Source of the DNA: Streptomyces exfoliatus
GTDB lineage: Bacteria > Actinomycetota > Actinomycetes > Streptomycetales > Streptomycetaceae
NCBI RefSeq assembly: GCF_000725545.1
Contig: NZ_JNZP01000001.1
Location: 496,001 to 560,000 of the forward strand
DNA length: 64,000 bases
Direction: 5' to 3'
This document shows positions 3,511 through 53,888 of the stretch, piece by piece (positions within the stretch are counted from its first letter, which is position 1; each line of letters opens with the position of its first letter). The translations under genes and the position numbers were made by a program. The notes under the pieces are model-generated. The model saw only the letters and a program-made list of their open reading frames with translations, was not told the origin of the DNA and did no database searches.

Positions 3511-5331
<1,821 letters not shown>

Positions 5332-16250: not shown

Positions 16251-16273
16251 TTGTCAGACCCCACCCGTAAGGT
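16251..16273 (+). promoter_or_regulatory. RecA-NDp/PafBC-like promoter of the SNF2-SWIM operon (two mismatches)
   Basis: TTGTCAGAC, an 8-base spacer and TAAGGT match the TTGTCRGTG-N8-TAnnnT pattern at 7 of 9 bases in the upstream element, with correct spacing and -10. The start codon is 48 bases downstream, with a ribosome-binding site between. Confidence 0.5.
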
Positions 16274-16320: not shown

Positions 16321-19200
16321 GTGACACAGCCCTGGATCACCGTCGCCGCCGTCTTCCTGCCGGCCGCACTGCCGCGCGAGGGCCGGGTCGCCTTCTGGGC
16401 CCCGGACGGCGGCGCGCTGCCCGATCCGGCGGGGAGCGGAGCGGAGCGCGTCGAGCTGACCGTCGCCCGGCGGCACGGCAGCGGCGCCCGGGGGCGCGCG
16501 GTCCCCGCGCTCACGCTGCCCGTCGACGCCGCGCTGCCCCATCTCGTCGCGGCCCGCCACCATCCGGCCGCCCACCCGGCGACCGCAGGCTGGGGCGCCG
16601 CCGCCCTGCACGCCCTGCACCTGGCGGCCCGCGGCCGAATGCTTCCGGGGCTGACCGCCGACGACCTGGACGCCTGGCGGGCCGGGCCGCTGGACGCCGA
16701 CGACATCGCCCATCTGCGGGCCGTCGCCGCCGCCCTGCCGTACGAGGCGCACGCCGTGCCCGTCCCGGGGCCCGGCCCGCTGCGGCTGCCCGATCCCGAG
16801 GCGCTCGTGCGCGCCTTCCTCGACGCGGTCGCCGACGTGCTGCCCCGCACCCCGGCCGCCGCGCACGCGGTGGGGGCGCCCTTCGCCTCCCGCGAGCCGC
16901 AGCACCTGCCCCGCGCGCGGGCCTGGGCCGCGGAGGCGGCCGCCGGGATGGACGCGGGTGTCCGTGTCTCGCTCCGCCTGGACCTCTCGGCGTACGAACT
17001 CTTCGACACGGCCGCCGGTGATCCGGCCGACGGGGCCGATGGGGCCCACGGGGCGGACGAGAGGCCGCGCGGCGAGCGCCATGCCGCCGCCGCGCTCCTC
17101 CAGGTCCACAGCCTCGCCGACCCGACCCTCGTCATCGACGCCGCGGCCCTGTGGGCGGGGGACGGCGACCACTTCGGGCCCCGCGCCCGGATCGACGCCG
17201 TCCTCGCGCTGCGCCGGGCCGCCCGCGTCTGGGCCCCGCTCGCCCGGCTCCTGGAGCGGGACGTGCCCGATGTCCTCGCCGTCACCGAGGACGAGCTGTA
17301 CGAGCTGCTCGGCCCCGCCTCCGCCCGGCTCGCCGACGCCGGCGTCGCCGTCCACTGGCCCCGCGAGCTGGCCCGTTCGCTCAGCGCCTCCGCCGTCGTC
17401 CGGGCCGGCCACACCGCACCCGGGTCCGCGACCGACGGCACCGCCTTCTTCGACAGCGAGGAACTCCTCCGGTTCAACTGGCAGCTGGCCCTCGACGGCG
17501 ATCCGCTCACCGAGCGCGAGATGGACCTGCTCGCCGAGGCCCATCGGCCCGTCGTGCGCCTCCGCGACCAGTGGGTCGTCGTCGACCCCGACCTCGTCCG
17601 CAAGGCGCGCAAGCGGGAGCTGGGCCTGCTCGAACCGGTCGACGCCCTCGCCGTCGCCCTCACCGGCACCGCGGAGGTGGACGGCGAGACCGTGCCCGCC
17701 GTCCCCGTCGGGGCGCTCGCGGCGCTCCGCGACCGGCTCCTCGCGGGACCCGAGGACGTGCAGGCCCCGCCCGGTCTCACGGCCACCCTCCGTGACTACC
17801 AGCTGCGCGGCCTCGCCTGGCTCGACCTGATGACCTCGCTCGGTCTCGGCGGCTGCCTCGCCGACGACATGGGCCTCGGCAAGACCATCACCCTCATCGC
17901 CCTCCATCTGCGCCGCGCCCGCCGGGCCCCCACCCTCGTCGTCTGTCCGGCCTCCCTGCTCGGCAACTGGCAGCGGGAGGTGGGGAAGTTCGCCCCCGGC
18001 GTGCCCGTCCGACGCTTCCACGGCGCCGAGCGGGACCTCGACGGCGCCGAGGGCGGCTTCGTCCTCACCACGTACGGCACCCTGCGCACGAGCGCCGCCC
18101 AACTGGCCGAGCGGGAGTGGGGGATGGTCGTCGCGGACGAGGCCCAGCACGTCAAGAACCCGTTCTCCGCGACCGCGAAGGCGCTGCGCGAGATCCCCGC
18201 GCCCGCCCGGGTCGCCCTCACCGGTACCCCCGTGGAGAACAACCTCTCCGAGCTGTGGGCCCTCCTCGACTGGACCACCCCCGGTCTCCTGGGCCCGCTC
18301 AAGGCCTTCCGTTCCCGGCACGCCCGCGCCGTGGAGAACCACGAGGAGATCGAGCACGAGGAGGCCGTCGAGCGGCTCGCCCGGCTCGTGCGGCCCTTCC
18401 TGCTGCGCCGCCGCAAGTCCGACCCCGGCATCGTCCCCGAGCTGCCGCCCAAGACCGAGTCCGACCATCCCGTCTCCCTCACCCGCGAACAGGCCTCGCT
18501 CTACGAGGCGGTGGTCCGCGAGACCATGGCGCAGATCGAGGAGGCGCGGGGCATGGCCCGCCGGGGCCTCGTCATGAAGCTGCTGACCTCGCTCAAGCAG
18601 ATCTGCAACCACCCCGCGCAGTACCTGAAGGAACAGGCGCCGCGCGGCAGCGGCACCGCGCGGCTCGCCGGCCGCTCCGGGAAGCTCGCCCTGCTCGACG
18701 AACTCCTCGACACGATCCTCGCCGAGGACGGGTCGGTGCTCGTCTTCACCCAGTACGTGTCGATGGCACGGCTCCTCGCCGACCATCTGGCCGCGCGCGG
18801 CATCCAGACCCAACTCCTCCACGGCGGAACGCCGGTGGCCGAGCGGGAGCGGATGGTGGACCGCTTCCAGGCCGGTGAGATCCCCGTCTTCCTGCTCTCC
18901 CTCAAGGCCGCGGGCACCGGCCTCAACCTCACCAGGGCCGGTCACGTCGTGCACTACGACCGCTGGTGGAACCCGGCCGTGGAGGAGCAGGCCACCGACC
19001 GCGCCTACCGCATCGGGCAGACCCAGCCGGTGCAGGTCCACCGGCTGGTCGCCGAGGGCACGGTCGAGGACCGGATCGCCGAGATGCTGCGTGCCAAGCG
19101 GGCCCTCGCCGACGCCGTCCTCGGCTCGGGCGAGGCCGCCCTCACCGAACTGACCGACCGGGAGCTCGCCGACCTGGTGTCCCTGAGGAGGCCCTCGTGA
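16321..19200 (+). CDS. SNF2-family DEAD/DEAH-box helicase (HelZ/YwqA-like)
   Basis: A 959-residue protein. The N-terminal half (about 1-450) is a lineage-specific region with the SNF2_assoc type domain. The C-terminal half is a Swi2/Snf2 ATPase: motif I D-D-M-G-L-G-K-T (about 515), motif II D-E-A-Q-H-V-K-N, motif III L-T-G-T-P-V-E-N-N, motif V T-G-L-N-L-T, motif VI Q-A-T-D-R-A-Y-R-I-G-Q. Such ATPases move along duplex DNA and remodel bound proteins. GTG at 16321 follows GGGAGGAG. The stop overlaps the SWIM gene by 4 bases (GTGA), so the two are translated together, as in the ywqA-ywqB pair of Bacillus subtilis and HelZ-type loci of other actinobacteria. Confidence 0.92.
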   Translation: MTQPWITVAAVFLPAALPREGRVAFWAPDGGALPDPAGSGAERVELTVARRHGSGARGRAVPALTLPVDAALPHLVAARHHPAAHPATAGWGAAALHALHLAARGRMLPGLTADDLDAWRAGPLDADDIAHLRAVAAALPYEAHAVPVPGPGPLRLPDPEALVRAFLDAVADVLPRTPAAAHAVGAPFASREPQHLPRARAWAAEAAAGMDAGVRVSLRLDLSAYELFDTAAGDPADGADGAHGADERPRGERHAAAALLQVHSLADPTLVIDAAALWAGDGDHFGPRARIDAVLALRRAARVWAPLARLLERDVPDVLAVTEDELYELLGPASARLADAGVAVHWPRELARSLSASAVVRAGHTAPGSATDGTAFFDSEELLRFNWQLALDGDPLTEREMDLLAEAHRPVVRLRDQWVVVDPDLVRKARKRELGLLEPVDALAVALTGTAEVDGETVPAVPVGALAALRDRLLAGPEDVQAPPGLTATLRDYQLRGLAWLDLMTSLGLGGCLADDMGLGKTITLIALHLRRARRAPTLVVCPASLLGNWQREVGKFAPGVPVRRFHGAERDLDGAEGGFVLTTYGTLRTSAAQLAEREWGMVVADEAQHVKNPFSATAKALREIPAPARVALTGTPVENNLSELWALLDWTTPGLLGPLKAFRSRHARAVENHEEIEHEEAVERLARLVRPFLLRRRKSDPGIVPELPPKTESDHPVSLTREQASLYEAVVRETMAQIEEARGMARRGLVMKLLTSLKQICNHPAQYLKEQAPRGSGTARLAGRSGKLALLDELLDTILAEDGSVLVFTQYVSMARLLADHLAARGIQTQLLHGGTPVAERERMVDRFQAGEIPVFLLSLKAAGTGLNLTRAGHVVHYDRWWNPAVEEQATDRAYRIGQTQPVQVHRLVAEGTVEDRIAEMLRAKRALADAVLGSGEAALTELTDRELADLVSLRRPS

Positions 19201-34527: not shown

Positions 34528-35094
34528 TCAGAACAGCGGTGCGGGCAGCACGCCCTCCAGGGCCAGCAACCGGCGCTTGGTCTCCAGGCCGCCCCCGAAG
34601 CCGCCGAGCCCGCCGTCACTCTCCACCACGCGATGGCAGGGCACCACCACCGGCAGTGGATTGGAGCCCATGGCCGCCCCGACCGCCTGAGCCGCCCCCG
34701 GCTGGCCCACACGCCGCGCCAGCTCCCCGTACCCCACGACCGTGCCGTACGGGACGCCGTCGGCCAGCTCGCGAAGGACCTGTCGGTTGAACCCCGCCGT
34801 CAGGCTCCAGTCCAGCGGCACGTCGATGTCGCCCGGCTCGCCCGCGAAGTACCGGTCGAGGCCGCGTATCGCGCCGGCGAGCAGCCCCGAGGCGCGCTCG
34901 ACCGGCTCCGTGCCGAGCTGCCCCGCCAGCCGGTCGAGCATCCGCTCCCGCCGCGCCGCGTCGGCGTGGAACTCCACCCGCACGAGCCCCCGCTCGGTCG
35001 CGGCGAGGAAGAGCGGCCCGAGGGCGCTCTCCATGACCGTCCACTCCGCCGGGACGGCCCGCCCGCCGCCCGACGGCTCCGCTTCGATGTCCAT
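34528..35094 (-). CDS. ogt: methylated-DNA-protein cysteine methyltransferase
   Basis: A 188-residue suicide repair protein that removes methyl groups from O6-methylguanine. The active site is in V-V-V-P-C-H-R-V-V near residue 155, preceded by the helix-turn-helix region G-T-V-V-G-Y-G-E-L-A-R-R-V-G and the arginine finger. There is no Ada-type N-terminal domain. ATG at 35094 has no ribosome-binding site, but TACCGT ends 7 bases upstream, so translation is probably leaderless. The promoter is an exact match to the RecA-independent DNA-damage motif. Confidence 0.94.
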   Translation of the reverse strand: MDIEAEPSGGGRAVPAEWTVMESALGPLFLAATERGLVRVEFHADAARRERMLDRLAGQLGTEPVERASGLLAGAIRGLDRYFAGEPGDIDVPLDWSLTAGFNRQVLRELADGVPYGTVVGYGELARRVGQPGAAQAVGAAMGSNPLPVVVPCHRVVESDGGLGGFGGGLETKRRLLALEGVLPAPLF

Positions 35095-35101
35095 GCCGAC
35101 C

Positions 35102-35124
35102 ACGGTACGACCCGCCACTGACAA
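35102..35124 (-). promoter_or_regulatory. RecA-NDp/PafBC-type DNA-damage promoter of ogt (exact match)
   Basis: On the minus strand TTGTCAGTG (35116-35124), 8 bases, TACCGT (35102-35107): identical to the mycobacterial consensus TTGTCRGTG-N8-TAnnnT. Transcription should start at or next to the ATG. Confidence 0.8.
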
Positions 35125-36244: not shown

Positions 36245-36267
36245 GTGTCGGTGCCGGGTCGTACGGT
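36245..36267 (+). promoter_or_regulatory. RecA-NDp/PafBC-type promoter of uvrB (one mismatch)
   Basis: GTGTCGGTG (36245-36253), 8 bases, TACGGT (36262-36267). Only the first base differs from TTGTCRGTG-N8-TAnnnT. The ATG is 6 bases past the -10. Confidence 0.75.
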
Positions 36268-36273
36268 GGTTGC

Positions 36274-38409
36274 ATGCGGCCCGTTTCCAAGATCGAACGT
36301 TCGGTGGCGCCCTTCGAGGTCGTCAGCTCCTACCAGCCCAGCGGCGACCAGCCCACGGCCATCGCCGACCTCGAGCGGCGCATCCGCGCGGGCGAGAAGG
36401 ACGTCGTGCTCCTCGGTGCCACCGGCACCGGAAAGTCGGCCACCACCGCCTGGATGATCGAGAAGCTCCAGCGCCCCACCCTGGTGATGGCGCCGAACAA
36501 GACGCTGGCCGCCCAGCTGGCGAACGAGTTCCGCGAGCTCCTGCCGAACAACGCGGTGGAGTACTTCGTCTCGTACTACGACTACTACCAGCCCGAGGCG
36601 TACGTGCCGCAGTCGGACACGTACATCGAGAAGGACTCCTCGATCAACGAGGAGGTGGAGCGGCTGCGCCACTCCGCGACGAACTCCCTGCTCACCCGCA
36701 GGGACGTCATCGTGGTCGCCTCCGTCTCCTGCATCTACGGCCTCGGCACGCCCCAGGAGTACGTGGACCGGATGGTCCCCCTGAAGGTCGGCGAGGAGGT
36801 CGACCGGGACCAGCTCCTGCGCCGCTTCGTCGACATCCAGTACACGCGCAACGACCTGGCGTTCACCCGCGGCACCTTCCGGGTCCGCGGGGACACCATC
36901 GAGATCTTCCCGGTCTACGAGGAGCTCGCCGTCCGCATCGAGATGTTCGGCGACGAGATCGAGGCCCTCTCCACCCTGCACCCGCTCACCGGCGAGGTCA
37001 TCAGCGAGGACCGCGAGCTGTACGTGTTCCCCGCCAGCCACTACGTCGCGGGCCCCGAGCGCATGGAGCGCGCGGTCAACGACATCGAGCGCGAGCTGGA
37101 GGGCCGTCTCGCCGAGCTCGACAAGCAGGGCAAGCACCTGGAGTCCCAGCGCCTGCGCATGCGGACCACGTACGACCTGGAGATGATGCGCCAGATCGGC
37201 TCGTGCTCCGGCATCGAGAACTACTCGATGCACTTCGACGGACGCGAGCCCGGTTCCGCGCCCAACACCCTCCTCGACTACTTCCCCGAGGACTTCCTCC
37301 TCGTCATCGACGAGTCGCACGTCACCGTGCCGCAGATCGGCGCCATGTACGAGGGCGACGCCTCCCGCAAGCGGACCCTCGTCGACCACGGCTTCCGGCT
37401 CCCCTCCGCCCTCGACAACCGCCCGCTGAAGTGGGAGGAGTTCCAGGAGCGGATCGGCCAGACCGTCTACCTCTCCGCGACCCCGGGGACGTACGAGCTG
37501 TCCCGGGGCGACGGCTTCGTCGAGCAGATCATCCGCCCCACCGGCCTCGTCGACCCCGAGGTCGTCGTCAAGCCCACCGAGGGCCAGATCGACGACCTGG
37601 TCCACGAGATCCGGCTGCGCACCGAGCGGGACGAGCGGGTCCTCGTCACCACTCTCACCAAGAAGATGGCCGAGGACCTCACCGACTACTTCCTGGAGCT
37701 CGGCATCCAGGTGCGTTACCTGCACAGCGACGTCGACACCCTGCGCCGCATCGAGCTGCTCCGTGAACTGCGCGCCGGAGAGTACGACGTCCTCGTGGGC
37801 ATCAACCTCCTCCGGGAGGGCCTCGACCTCCCCGAGGTGTCCCTCGTGGCCATCCTCGACGCCGACAAGCAGGGCTTCCTGCGCTCCGGCACCTCCCTGA
37901 TCCAGACGATCGGCCGCGCCGCCCGAAACGTCTCGGGCCAGGTCCACATGTACGCCGACCGGATCACCCCGGCGATGGAGCAGGCCATCGACGAGACCAA
38001 CCGGCGCCGCGAGAAGCAGATCGCGTACAACACGGAGCGCGGCATCGACCCGCAGCCGCTGCGCAAGAAGATCAACGACATCGTCGCGACCATCGCGCGC
38101 GAGGAGATCGACACCGAGGAACTCCTCGGCTCCGGCTACCGCCAGGGCAAGGAGGGCAAGGGTGCCAAGGCCCCCGTCCCCGCGCTCGCCGCGCACGGCG
38201 TCAAGGCCAGGGGCAAGGGCAAGGCCGGTTCCACCATGGAGCTCGGCGACCGGCCCGCCACGGAACTCGCCGCGATCATCGAGGAGATGACCGACCGGAT
38301 GCGCGCCGCCGCGGCCGAGCTGCAGTTCGAGGTGGCGGCCCGGCTCCGCGACGAAGTGGGAGAGCTGAAGAAGGAGTTGCGCCAGATGAAGGAGGCGGGA
38401 CTCGCCTGA
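36274..38409 (+). CDS. uvrB: excinuclease ABC subunit B
   Basis: A 711-residue damage-verification helicase of nucleotide excision repair, loaded by UvrA and then bound by UvrC. Walker A G-A-T-G-T-G-K-S near residue 50, the beta-hairpin [10 protein letters not shown], motif II D-E-S-H, motif [11 protein letters not shown], motif [11 protein letters not shown]. The C-terminal UVR motif (about 668-705) binds UvrC. A Lys/Gly-rich insert (about 625-655) precedes it. ATG at 36274 has no ribosome-binding site, so the message is probably leaderless. Confidence 0.98.
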
Positions 38410-38465: not shown

Positions 38466-38488
38466 CTGTCAGTCCCCCTGCGTAGGGT
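38466..38488 (+). promoter_or_regulatory. RecA-NDp/PafBC-like promoter of terD (two mismatches)
   Basis: CTGTCAGTC (38466-38474), 8 bases, TAGGGT (38483-38488). First and last bases of the upstream element differ from the consensus; spacing and -10 agree. The start codon is 58 bases downstream with a normal ribosome-binding site. Confidence 0.5.
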
Positions 38489-38546: not shown

Positions 38547-39125
38547 GTGACGGTCAACATGACCAAGGGTCAGGCCATCAGCCTGGAGAAGCAGGGCGGG
38601 GGCAGTCTCACCCAGGTAAGGATGGGGCTCGGCTGGCAGGCGGCACCGCGCCGCGGTCTCTTCGGCAAGCGCACGCAGGAGATCGACCTGGACGCCTCGG
38701 CCGTCCTCTTCGCGGACAAGCAGCCGGTCGACGTGGTCTTCTTCCGCCACCTGGTCAGCGACGACGGCTCGGTCAAGCACACCGGTGACAACCTCGTCGG
38801 CGGCGCGGGCCAGGGCGGGGACGACGAGGCGATCCTCGTCGACCTCCAGCGGGTCCCGGTCCACATCGACACGATCGTCTTCACGGTGAACTCCTTCACC
38901 GGTCAGACGTTCCAGGAGGTGCAGAACGCCTTCTGCCGGATCGTCGACGAGACGAACGGCCAGGAGCTCGCGCGCTACACCCTGGACGGCGGCGGCAACT
39001 ACACCGCCCAGATCATGGCGAAGGTGCACCGGGTCGGCTCCGGCTGGCAGATGACCGCCCTGGGCAACCCGGCCAACGGCCGCACCTTCCAGGACCTGAT
39101 GCCGGCGATCCTGCCGCACCTCTAG
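38547..39125 (+). CDS. TerD-family stress protein
   Basis: A 192-residue TerD domain protein, N-terminal M-T-K-G-Q-A-I-S-L-E-K, then D-L-D-A-S-A-V-L-F and a D-N-L-V-G-G-A-G-Q-G-G-D-D-E loop of the Ca2+-binding type (NDN-like), and R-Y-T-L-D-G-G near the end. TerD proteins are linked to tellurite resistance and to phage, oxidative and DNA-damage stress in ways not fully understood. GTG at 38547 follows GAGAGGGG. It is the first of three Ter-type genes in a row (with 39248 and 41485). Confidence 0.92.
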   Translation: MTVNMTKGQAISLEKQGGGSLTQVRMGLGWQAAPRRGLFGKRTQEIDLDASAVLFADKQPVDVVFFRHLVSDDGSVKHTGDNLVGGAGQGGDDEAILVDLQRVPVHIDTIVFTVNSFTGQTFQEVQNAFCRIVDETNGQELARYTLDGGGNYTAQIMAKVHRVGSGWQMTALGNPANGRTFQDLMPAILPHL

Positions 39126-44005: not shown

Positions 44006-44662
44006 TCACCAGCCGCGCTCGCGCCACGTCGCGAGGGACGGGCGCTCGTCACCGAGCGTGGTGTCCTTGCCGTGGCCCGGATAGATCCAGGACTCGTCCG
44101 GGAGTACCGCGAACAGCTTGGTCTCCACGTCGTGGATCAGGCTCGCGAAGGCCTCGGGGTCCTTCCAGGTGTTGCCCACCCCGCCCGGGAAGAGGCAGTC
44201 GCCGGTGAAGACGTGGGGGTGGCCGTGCGGGTCGTCGTAGACGAGGGCGATGGAACCGGGGGTGTGCCCGACCAGGCGGCGCGCGGTCAGCTCGACCCGG
44301 CCCACGCGGATCGTGTCGCCGTCCTCGACGGGCACGTCCGTGGCGACCGGGATGCCCTCCGCGTCGTACGCGCCCGCGTACGTGACGGCGCCGGTCGCGG
44401 CGACGACCTCGGCGAGCGCCTGCCAGTGGTCGCCGTGGCGGTGGGTGGTGACGACGGCCCTGATGCCGTCGTCACCGATCAGCGTGAGCAGCGTGCCGGC
44501 GTCGTTGGCCGCGTCGATCAGCAGCTGCTCGCCGGTGGCCCGGCAGCGCAGCAGATACGCGTTGTTGTCCATCGGGCCGACCGCGACCTTCGAGATCATC
44601 AGGTCCGTCAGCTCGTGCACGTCCGCCGGTCCGCCGACCTTCACCACTCCGCTGTACGTCAT
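44006..44662 (-). CDS. MBL-fold hydrolase, glyoxalase II-like (Rv1637c-like)
   Basis: A 218-residue metallo-beta-lactamase-fold enzyme: metal motif T-H-R-H-G-D-H-W near residue 72, a third-histidine motif G-H-T-P-G-S-I, G-D-C-L-F-P and final Y-P-G-H-G. These point to a binuclear zinc thioesterase such as glyoxalase II or a mycothiol-linked version. It sits next to uvrA, as does the related gene Rv1637c in Mycobacterium tuberculosis. No ribosome-binding site; TAGGCT ends 6 bases before the ATG, so the mRNA is probably leaderless. Its promoter matches the RecA-independent DNA-damage motif. Confidence 0.9.
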   Translation of the reverse strand: MTYSGVVKVGGPADVHELTDLMISKVAVGPMDNNAYLLRCRATGEQLLIDAANDAGTLLTLIGDDGIRAVVTTHRHGDHWQALAEVVAATGAVTYAGAYDAEGIPVATDVPVEDGDTIRVGRVELTARRLVGHTPGSIALVYDDPHGHPHVFTGDCLFPGGVGNTWKDPEAFASLIHDVETKLFAVLPDESWIYPGHGKDTTLGDERPSLATWRERGW

Positions 44663-44668
44663 GGGATC

Positions 44669-44691
44669 AGCCTAGCTTCGCCCACCGACAG
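44669..44691 (-). promoter_or_regulatory. RecA-NDp/PafBC-type promoter of MBL hydrolase (one mismatch)
   Basis: On the minus strand CTGTCGGTG (44683-44691), 8 bases, TAGGCT (44669-44674). Only the first base departs from the consensus. It fits within the 34-base gap after the upstream gene. Confidence 0.75.
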
Positions 44692-45462: not shown

Positions 45463-45482
45463 TCGAATGTGCGTGCTATAAG
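45463..45482 (+). promoter_or_regulatory. uvrA promoter -10 with weak LexA-like box
   Basis: TATAAG (45477-45482) is the best -10 upstream of uvrA. Overlapping it, TCGAAT-GTGC-GTGCTA (45463-45478) is a degenerate copy of the actinobacterial LexA box TCGAAC-N4-GTTCGA. The right half is poor. Confidence 0.35.
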
Positions 45483-51881: not shown

Positions 51882-51904
51882 GTGTCGGTGCCCGCCAGTA
51901 GGGT
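51882..51904 (+). promoter_or_regulatory. RecA-NDp/PafBC-type promoter of uvrC (one mismatch)
   Basis: GTGTCGGTG (51882-51890), 8 bases, TAGGGT (51899-51904), the ATG 7 bases later. The upstream 11 bases GTGTCGGTGCC are the same as at uvrB. Confidence 0.75.
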
Positions 51905-51911
51905 GGGGAGC

Positions 51912-53888
51912 ATGGCAGACCCCTCCAGCTACCGCCCCAAGCCGGGTCAGATCCCCGACTCCCCGGGGGTCTACAAGTTCCGCGACGAGCACCGCCGCGT
52001 GATCTACGTGGGGAAGGCGAAGTCCCTGCGCCAGCGGCTCGCCAACTACTTCCAGCCGCTCGCGAGCCTGCACCCGCGCACGGCCACCATGGTGACCACC
52101 GCCGCCTCCGTCGAGTGGACCGTCGTGTCGACCGAGGTCGAGGCGCTGCAGCTGGAGTACTCCTGGATCAAGGAGTACGACCCCCGGTTCAACGTGAAGT
52201 ACCGGGACGACAAGAGCTACCCGTACCTCGCGGTCACCATGAACGAGGAGTTCCCGCGCGTCCAGGTCATGCGCGGCCACAAGAAGAAGGGCGTGCGCTA
52301 CTTCGGGCCGTACGCGCACGCGTGGGCGATCCGCGAGACCGTCGACCTGATGCTGCGGGTCTTCCCCGTCCGCACCTGCTCGGCGGGCGTCTTCCGGAAC
52401 GCGGCCTCGGCCGGCCGCCCCTGCCTCCTCGGCTACATCGGCAAGTGCTCGGCCCCCTGCGTCGGCCGGGTCACCCCCGAGGAGCACCGCGAACTCGCCG
52501 AGGAGTTCAGCGACTTCATGGCCGGCCGTACCGGGACCTACATCCGCCGTCTCGAGAAGCAGATGATGCTGGCCGCCGAGGACATGGAGTACGAGAAGGC
52601 CGGTCGGCTGCGCGACGACATAGAGGCGCTGCGCCGGGCCATGGAGAAGAGCGCGGTCGTGCTCGCCGACGCCACCGACGCCGACCTGATCGCCCTCGCG
52701 GAGGACGAGCTGGAGGCCGCGGTGCAGATCTTCCACGTGCGCGGCGGACGCGTCCGCGGCCAGCGCGGCTGGGTCACCGACAAGGTCGAGGCCGTCGACA
52801 CGGCCGGCCTCGTCGAGCACGCGCTGCAGCAGCTGTACGGCGAGGAGAGCGGCGACGCGGTCCCCAAGGAGGTCCTGGTCCCGGCGCTGCCCGAGGACGC
52901 GGAGGCCGTCACCGCCTGGCTCACAGGCCGCCGCGGGTCGAACGTCTCGCTGCGGATCCCGCAGCGCGGCGACAAGAAGGACCTCATGACGACGGTCGCG
53001 CGCAACGCCCAGCAGGCGCTCGTGCTGCACAAGACGAAGCGCGCCAGCGATCTGACCACCCGCTCCCGGGCCCTGGAGGAGATCGCCGAGGCCCTGGACC
53101 TGGAGTCGGCGCCGCTGCGGATCGAGTGCTTCGACATCTCGCACCTCCAGGGCGAGGACGTGGTCGCCTCGATGGTGGTCTTCGAGGACGGACTGCCCCG
53201 CAAGAGCGAGTACCGCCGCTTCCAGATCAAGGGCTTCGAGGGGCAGGACGACGTCCGGTCCATGCACGAGGTGATCGGCCGCCGCTTCCGGCGCTATCTC
53301 GCCGAGAAGGAGAGGACGGGGGAGTGGGATCCGGAGGGCGTGGTCGAGGACCCGGAGGAGACCGGGCGGCCCAAGCGCTTCGCGTACCCGCCGCAGCTCG
53401 TGGTGGTCGACGGCGGGCAGCCGCAGGTCGCCGCCGCCCGGCGGGCCCTGGACGAGCTGGGCATCGATGACATCGCGGTCTGCGGGCTCGCCAAGCGTCT
53501 CGAGGAGGTCTGGCTGCCCGGCGACGACGACCCGGTCGTGCTGCCCCGCTCCAGCGAGGGCCTGTACCTCCTTCAGCGCGTACGTGACACGGCTCACGAC
53601 TTCGCCATCCGCTACCAGCGGTCCAAGCGGACGAAACGCATCCGGACCAGCCCTCTCGACGAGGTCCCCGGTCTGGGTGACACCCGGAAACGCGCGTTGA
53701 TCAAGCATTTCGGCTCGGTGAAGCGGCTCCGGCAGGCGACAATCGAGCAGATCTGCGAAGTTCCCGGCATGGGCCGGAAGACCGCGGAAGCGGTCGTCGT
53801 GGCCCTCGCCCAGGCGGCCCCGGCCGCACCCGCCGTGAACACGGCGACAGGAGAGATCATGGACGACGACGGGGGCGGCACGGCATGA
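51912..53888 (+). CDS. uvrC: excinuclease ABC subunit C
   Basis: A 658-residue dual nuclease that cuts on both sides of a lesion. Domains: GIY-YIG nuclease (about 16-95; P-G-V-Y-K-F, V-I-Y-V-G-K-A), a Cys-rich turn, UVR motif near 205-240 that binds UvrB, RNase H-like nuclease (about 385-560; [13 protein letters not shown]), and tandem helix-hairpin-helix at the C-terminus ([16 protein letters not shown]). ATG 51912 is probably leaderless since GGGGAG lies too close to serve as ribosome-binding site. First gene of uvrC-rapZ-yvcK-whiA. Confidence 0.98.

Follow-up and report, generated by a model that had tools for sequence, protein, structure and literature searches.

The closest described relatives of the promoter analysed here come from mycobacteria and from Streptomyces itself. 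In M. smegmatis, PafBC activated by single-stranded DNA lets the SigA holoenzyme use promoters of this kind, with PafB contacting the -26 motif and PafC contacting domain 4 of the sigma factor (PMC11804915). The mitomycin-responsive gene Rv1955 of M. tuberculosis has a mapped RecA-NDp promoter that is leadered (PMC2897130), which speaks against a strictly leaderless regulon. For Streptomyces, the motif is already in print (PMC2375139, PMC5087735). The RecA-NDp promoter of S. rimosus recA (Ahel 2002, as quoted in PMC2375139) reads TTGTCAGTGGC-N6-TAGggT, and UV-inducible SCO6735 of S. coelicolor is described as having this promoter (PMC5087735). The SIGffRid motif TGTCAGT-N14-TnG, obtained from S. 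coelicolor and S. avermitilis, was assigned to 67 S. coelicolor genes including uvrB, ung, radA, recQ, dinG, dinP, dnaN and polymerase I genes (PMC2375139). Mapped transcription starts of S. lividans TK24 define a promoter class, TGTC-12 nt-TANNNT, that is enriched for COG L (replication/repair) (PMC6742748). By spacing, the element described below matches this class: the RGTG-N8 between its TGTC and TANNNT counts to 12 nt. The regulator of the Streptomyces motif is disputed: the S. lividans class is credited in PMC6742748 to an ECF sigma factor and not to PafBC, while an initial search in S. venezuelae suggested that the PafBC motif is not conserved (PMC9380542). The data presented here favour PafBC acting with the housekeeping polymerase. 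A leaderless PafBC regulon is not named in the titles and abstract openings of the mostly non-subscription literature that was covered.

The ogt promoter and its conservation

The window, i.e. the whole 64-kb stretch of DNA that was analysed, carries on its minus strand the gene ogt (34528..35094), encoding a methylated-DNA--[protein]-cysteine S-methyltransferase of 188 aa (TIGR00589, 94.9 bits, cut-off 46.4). A preliminary description of the window had placed an exact match to the mycobacterial consensus TTGTCRGTG-N8-TANNNT in front of this gene, and the match proved to be free of mismatches: the minus strand from 35124 to 35102 reads TTGTCAGTGGCGGGTCGTACCGT, composed of TTGTCAGTG (35124-35116), the N8 spacer GCGGGTCG and the -10 element TACCGT (35107-35102). 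The consensus itself was taken from that description, and the S. rimosus sequence quoted in PMC2375139 is in line with it. Downstream follow the 7 nt GGTCGGC and then the ATG at 35094, precisely the spacing that had been claimed. Given that the -10 ends 7 nt before this ATG, ogt is predicted to be leaderless. The nearest database relatives of Ogt (P0002-P0004) are likewise 188 aa long at full coverage, in line with use of the same ATG.

Conservation was evaluated at the best 80 of 436 confirmed relatives of the locus, 79 from Streptomyces (S. zaomyceticus and S. gardneri among them) and one recorded as Microtetraspora glauca. All 80 loci have the site at 2 mismatches or fewer (59 exact matches, 20 deviating at one position and 1 at two), and in every one of them a start codon (79 ATG, 1 GTG) lies 6 or 7 nt past the -10, so that the leaderless geometry first noted in this genome holds throughout. 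This agreement partly reflects descent, as the loci are close relatives. An alignment of the 80 loci anchored at the site shows no variation in TGTC, in the G following R, in the final G of TTGTCRGTG or in the T, A and final T of the -10; the columns 30 to 5 upstream of the site reached at most 0.69 bits. Read in reverse, none of the 80 stretches came under 3 mismatches; on the opposite strand there was 1 exact match in the 80, the rest having 3 or more mismatches. Judged by its sequence and conservation, the ogt promoter is a real, strongly conserved RecA-NDp promoter of the leaderless type.

We also looked for LexA boxes. A weak match, GAATTGGCGTTC, which differs from GAAC-N4-GTTC at 1 position, starts 95 nt upstream of the ogt site. 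Judged by this short box, SOS control of ogt appears doubtful.

Related sites in the window and across the genome

Within the window, TTGTCRGTG-N8-TANNNT was matched at 2 mismatches or fewer by 9 sites against 1.27 expected, a number reached in 0 of 100 shuffles. Six of these are the sites that the preliminary description had grouped together (16251, 35102, 36245, 38466, 44669, 51882); the others, at 3610, 59112 and 61200, have 2 mismatches each. As a set of sequence matches the six stand, and as promoters they are of unequal standing, with ogt and uvrB firm. The uvrB promoter (36245..36267, plus strand) deviates by one mismatch (G for the first T), and its -10, TACGGT, ends 6 nt before the ATG at 36274 of uvrB (36274..38409, plus strand; 711 aa; NF003673, 1073.5 bits, cut-off 743). 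In 75 of 75 loci in which the start was located (75 of 80), a site deviating by no more than 1 mismatch precedes the ATG by 6-7 nt, uvrB and jetA starts being located by widened peptide patterns or tblastn anchoring. The uvrC promoter (51882..51904, plus strand; 1 mismatch), with the -10 TAGGGT ending 7 nt before the ATG at 51912 of uvrC (51912..53888, plus strand; NF001824, 860.4 bits on the first 497 aa, cut-off 451), is partly conserved: all 30 loci keep the -10 and the 7-nt spacing and 29 keep TGTC, GTG is often lost, and 20 of the 30 have the full motif at 2 mismatches or fewer, 12 of them at 1 or none.

The site before the terD-family gene (38466..38488, plus strand; 2 mismatches; TerD PF02342) is well supported, with at most 2 mismatches, 6 times exact, in 22 of the 26 loci in which the start was found (26 of 80; missed in 54). 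It lies 70 nt before the ATG at 38559 and 40-78 nt from the start codon across loci, and is thus leadered and not leaderless. The site at 16251..16273 (plus strand) is a conserved variant, TTGTCAGACC-N7-TAAGGT, 47 nt before the GTG at 16321 of an SNF2-type helicase gene (SNF2-rel_dom PF00176). Of 30 loci returned, 27 were used; 23 of these match the consensus at 2 mismatches or fewer and 20 have exactly TTGTCAGACC, in a position that is not leaderless. Like uvrC, this site departs from the consensus at the GTG half. The sixth member of the set does not hold as a conserved promoter: the site at 44669..44691 (minus strand; 1 mismatch, leaderless spacing) precedes a gene (44006-44662) resembling MBL-fold hydrolases, with family matches below cut-off, and was rejected because it recurs at 2 mismatches or fewer in just 2 of 30 loci, this genome being one. 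The MBL and uvrC counts refer to the 30 nearest-relative loci including this genome, out of 41 and 31 genomes with matches, respectively.

The source genome (7.87 Mb, 128 contigs) was then scanned for sites with at most one mismatch. It contains 92, of which 19 are exact and 73 have one mismatch, against a single match to the reversed pattern. For all 92 sites we determined the distance from the -10 to an ATG or GTG opening a frame of at least 60 codons. The distances peak at 6 and 7 nt, with 12 of 19 exact sites (1.1 expected, p 4e-11) and 37 of all 92 (3.7 expected, p 1e-27), where the expected counts are drawn from offsets 12-79 and the p values treat sites as independent. All 37 leaderless sites share TGTC, the G following R and the final T of the -10, and of their 25 mismatches 11 fall on the first base of TTGTC and 8 on the first -10 base. 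The best GAAC-N4-GTTC match nearby has 1 mismatch at 3 of the 37 sites, 2 at 25 and 3 at 9.

A search for start codons 5-9 nt past the -10 yielded 41 genes, all at distances of 6-9 nt, of which 40 (all except L085) had their proteins scanned against family profiles. Half of them, 20 of 40, belong to repair, replication or recombination. Fifteen of these exceeded the curated cut-off (Ogt, RecA, RadA, UvrB, UvrC, RecD2, DnaX, a DnaN-type clamp, Ung, DNA polymerase IV, a RecQ family protein, PcrA, Nth, an AlkZ-like glycosylase and a PD-(D/E)XK nuclease); the five below cut-off were PolA and Lhr-like, YoaA/DinG-like, RarA-like and UvrD-like proteins, some of them truncated where the retrieved sequence stops. 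Among the remaining 20 are an efflux transporter, an ABC ATPase, FolC and a glyoxalase-like protein, all over cut-offs; weak matches only, to MBL-type, DarG-like macrodomain, pentapeptide repeat and PrsW proteins; Wadjet JetA; and proteins with no match. Eight genes behind sites at other spacings were scanned as well and encode RuvC, a uracil-DNA glycosylase, a topoisomerase IV/gyrase A protein, a macrodomain protein, an alpha/beta hydrolase, a transporter and two proteins without a match. Of 7 motif-less control genes, which have a -10 at leaderless spacing but lack an upstream TGTC, 0 match a repair family, the DinB_2 match among them being a superfamily name and not polymerase IV. The tie to repair genes proposed for the window is thus upheld by the scan of the genome (92 sites against 1; 20 of 40 repair-type genes against 0 of 7) and is conserved among relatives at ogt (80/80) and uvrB (75/75).

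Some of these loci merit separate mention. Two exact leaderless sites (L004, L008) precede genes whose products have no Pfam or NCBIfam match, and the product of L004 matches the PADLOC profile SWIM_XIII. Of 150 genomes in the genus, 147 have a match to JetA (Wadjet-type, PADLOC JetA3; L056, L198-L227), and a related leaderless promoter precedes jetA with at most 1 mismatch in 22 of 30 loci (the nearest relatives including this genome, out of the 147), its GTG half drifting. At recA (L007:1531-2700), translation from the leaderless ATG would begin 12 codons before the MAGTDREK start, which implies that the protein is extended at its N-terminus or that the mRNA has a short leader, and an SOS-like box, GAACATCCATTC, is present upstream. 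The gene starting at about 45591, which we take to be uvrA, has no RecA-NDp-type site near its start, in contrast to uvrB and uvrC, and carries a weak LexA-like box, TCGAATGTGCGTGCTA, at 45463 with 3 mismatches to TCGAAC-N4-GTTCGA. This box agrees with a report that LexA binds at uvrA in S. venezuelae (PMC9380542); excision-repair genes may thus be split between two damage pathways.

The candidate regulator and competing explanations

WYL-domain proteins were matched 9 times in the genome, and two of the genes adjoin each other on contig 15. The first of the two is PafB: over its whole length it aligns with the M. smegmatis PafB seen in promoter complex 7P5X (chain AY as best PDB match, E 9.4e-58 over 318 residues), with GDEAFNRMFERDKDDLRELG in its N-terminal domain against SDEAFSRMFERDKNELRDLG in the M. 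smegmatis protein, a stretch that presumably holds the recognition helix. The second gene reads as PafC by its adjacency, its WYL match and inspection. The neighbouring genes appear, as recognised by sight, to encode PafA, proteasome subunits, Pup, Dop and the ARC/Mpa ATPase, which would make this a proteasome-type locus. About 15 kb from pafB there is a gene for a PD-(D/E)XK nuclease that has an exact leaderless site (L012).

The best-supported mechanism for the ogt promoter is control by PafBC with the housekeeping sigma factor. DNA damage would generate single-stranded DNA and thereby activate PafBC; PafB would read TTGTCRGTG around -26 and PafC would bridge to region 4 of HrdB, which itself would need to read only the -10 TANNNT, a sigma adaptation as shown in M. 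smegmatis. The ogt transcript would begin with the A of the ATG and be translated as a leaderless mRNA. We consider it likely, with a probability of about 0.8, that the ogt site is in this way the main damage-responsive promoter of the gene. For ogt itself, we infer from motif, geometry and gene content the binding of PafBC, the use of HrdB, the start site, the induction by damage and its dependence on PafBC, and the leaderless translation.

A dedicated ECF sigma factor, the homologue of SLIV_13900/SCO4895, might instead read TGTC and TANNNT directly and without PafBC, the reading put forward for the S. lividans TGTC-12 nt-TANNNT promoters because the SLIV_13900 sigma gene itself bears such a promoter and because expression of its S. 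coelicolor homologue goes along with that of repair genes (PMC6742748). The S. coelicolor HrdB regulon, moreover, is reported to show no 12-nt peak (PMC6742748). A promoter on the sigma gene makes it a target, however, and not necessarily a regulator, and since PafBC needs activation, HrdB data taken without damage could account for the missing peak. Furthermore, TANNNT is the general -10 of S. lividans, comparable to that of the HrdB regulon (PMC6742748), and the motif equals the mycobacterial PafBC/SigA motif (PMC11804915 and the consensus of the preliminary description). We therefore judge direct reading by an ECF sigma factor to be improbable.

Another of the 9 WYL-domain proteins could control some or all of the sites, e.g. 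those with the TTGTCAGACC variant, a form that is conserved at the SNF2 helicase gene and recurs upstream of jetA in some relatives. Against this stands, for the TTGTCRGTG sites, the full-length match of PafB to the mycobacterial motif reader, and we hold control by a different WYL protein to be quite improbable. The variant TTGTCAGACC-N7-TANNNT before the SNF2-type helicase gene may be a PafBC sub-motif or the site of another regulator. That the ogt site is a constitutive leaderless promoter, resembling a damage motif through shared polymerase contacts only, is very hard to credit: leaderless genes make up some 20-21% of the total in S. lividans and S. coelicolor (PMC6742748), but leaderless spacing exceeds a 21% baseline at the exact sites (12/19, p 8e-5) and at all sites (37/92, p 2e-5), and all 80 ogt loci retain a 9-base element beyond the -10, one that tracks repair genes.

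Distribution and comparison with described systems

Across the genus, the exact motif with an ATG at 6-7 nt occurs in 61 of 61 genomes, against 0 for the reversed control. In the class, 138 genomes hold 678 exact sites, 350 of which (52%) have an ATG or GTG at 6-7 nt, as do 232 of 419 outside the genus; the reversed pattern gave class-level counts of 3 and 14, and near-identical repeated copies in some families inflate the site totals. The motif fades outside the class: the phylum scan yielded 41 sites against 17 control matches in 181 genomes, compared with 263 sites against 1 in its 17 genomes of the class. At least 120 stretches of viral contigs bear the leaderless motif, which by a rough estimate is about chance level for so large a collection.

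PafB was matched in 128 of the 138 genomes, 32 of the 128 being without an exact site. The genomes more than 90% complete and lacking a PafB match (G281, G315, G324, G359) have 0, 1, 0 and 0 sites, and G268, 78% complete, has 5 sites and no PafB match. PafB presence and motif counts thus do not track each other closely, and their co-occurrence was uninformative as a test, since PafB matches nearly everywhere, sound negatives are too few and 32 matched genomes are without an exact site.

Elsewhere in the class, DUF222 genes of other families carry exact leaderless RecA-NDp promoters: 9 of 9 scanned products match PF02720, one below cut-off (L180-L182, L184, L185, L187, L189-L191, from G286, G121, G280, G133, G319, G155, G305, G342 and G373; L183, L186 and L188 fell outside this set). 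Some copies of these promoters are near-identical within one genome. Some of the DUF222 promoters (L180-L184; G286, G121, G280, G133) have a LexA-like box such as TCGAACGTATGTTCGA lying over N8 and the -10, so that one promoter would answer to both PafBC and LexA.

Our wider interpretation is tentative, and we give it somewhat less than even odds: the TGTC-12 nt-TANNNT class may be the PafBC regulon, leaderless throughout the class, with box, -10 and start codon at a fixed distance. Damage-induced repair mRNAs would then start at the AUG and be translated without a leader, perhaps favoured when normal initiation falters, and the repeated DUF222/HNH genes of other families would have adopted the module, in some cases with a LexA-like box over the -10 that puts one promoter under both damage pathways. 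Three strands would thereby be joined that are not linked in PMC2375139, PMC6742748 and PMC9380542 as far as these were covered: a motif without a regulator, a mapped class assigned to an ECF sigma factor, and a doubted PafBC response of Streptomyces. The fixed leaderless geometry (350 of 678 exact sites in 138 genomes) raises the question whether damage-induced repair proteins are made by leaderless translation. The interest of the finding rests on this class-wide geometry and on the conflicting published assignments; the ogt promoter itself joins a known kind of promoter.

In comparison with the described systems, the ogt promoter shares element, spacing and gene class with the RecA-NDp promoters of S. 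rimosus recA and of M. tuberculosis (Gamulin 2004, via citing papers), and differs from them in that it lies on ogt and has its -10 at 6-7 nt from the start codon in all 80 loci. The account of the SIGffRid motif differs from ours in that PMC2375139, as far as it was covered, names no regulator and mentions neither the leaderless geometry nor ogt. With the PafBC regulon of M. smegmatis (PMC11804915, PMC8223512), the system described here shares the promoter motif and the location of PafB at a proteasome locus; dependence on PafBC has been demonstrated in M. smegmatis, whereas for the promoters described here it is a proposal.
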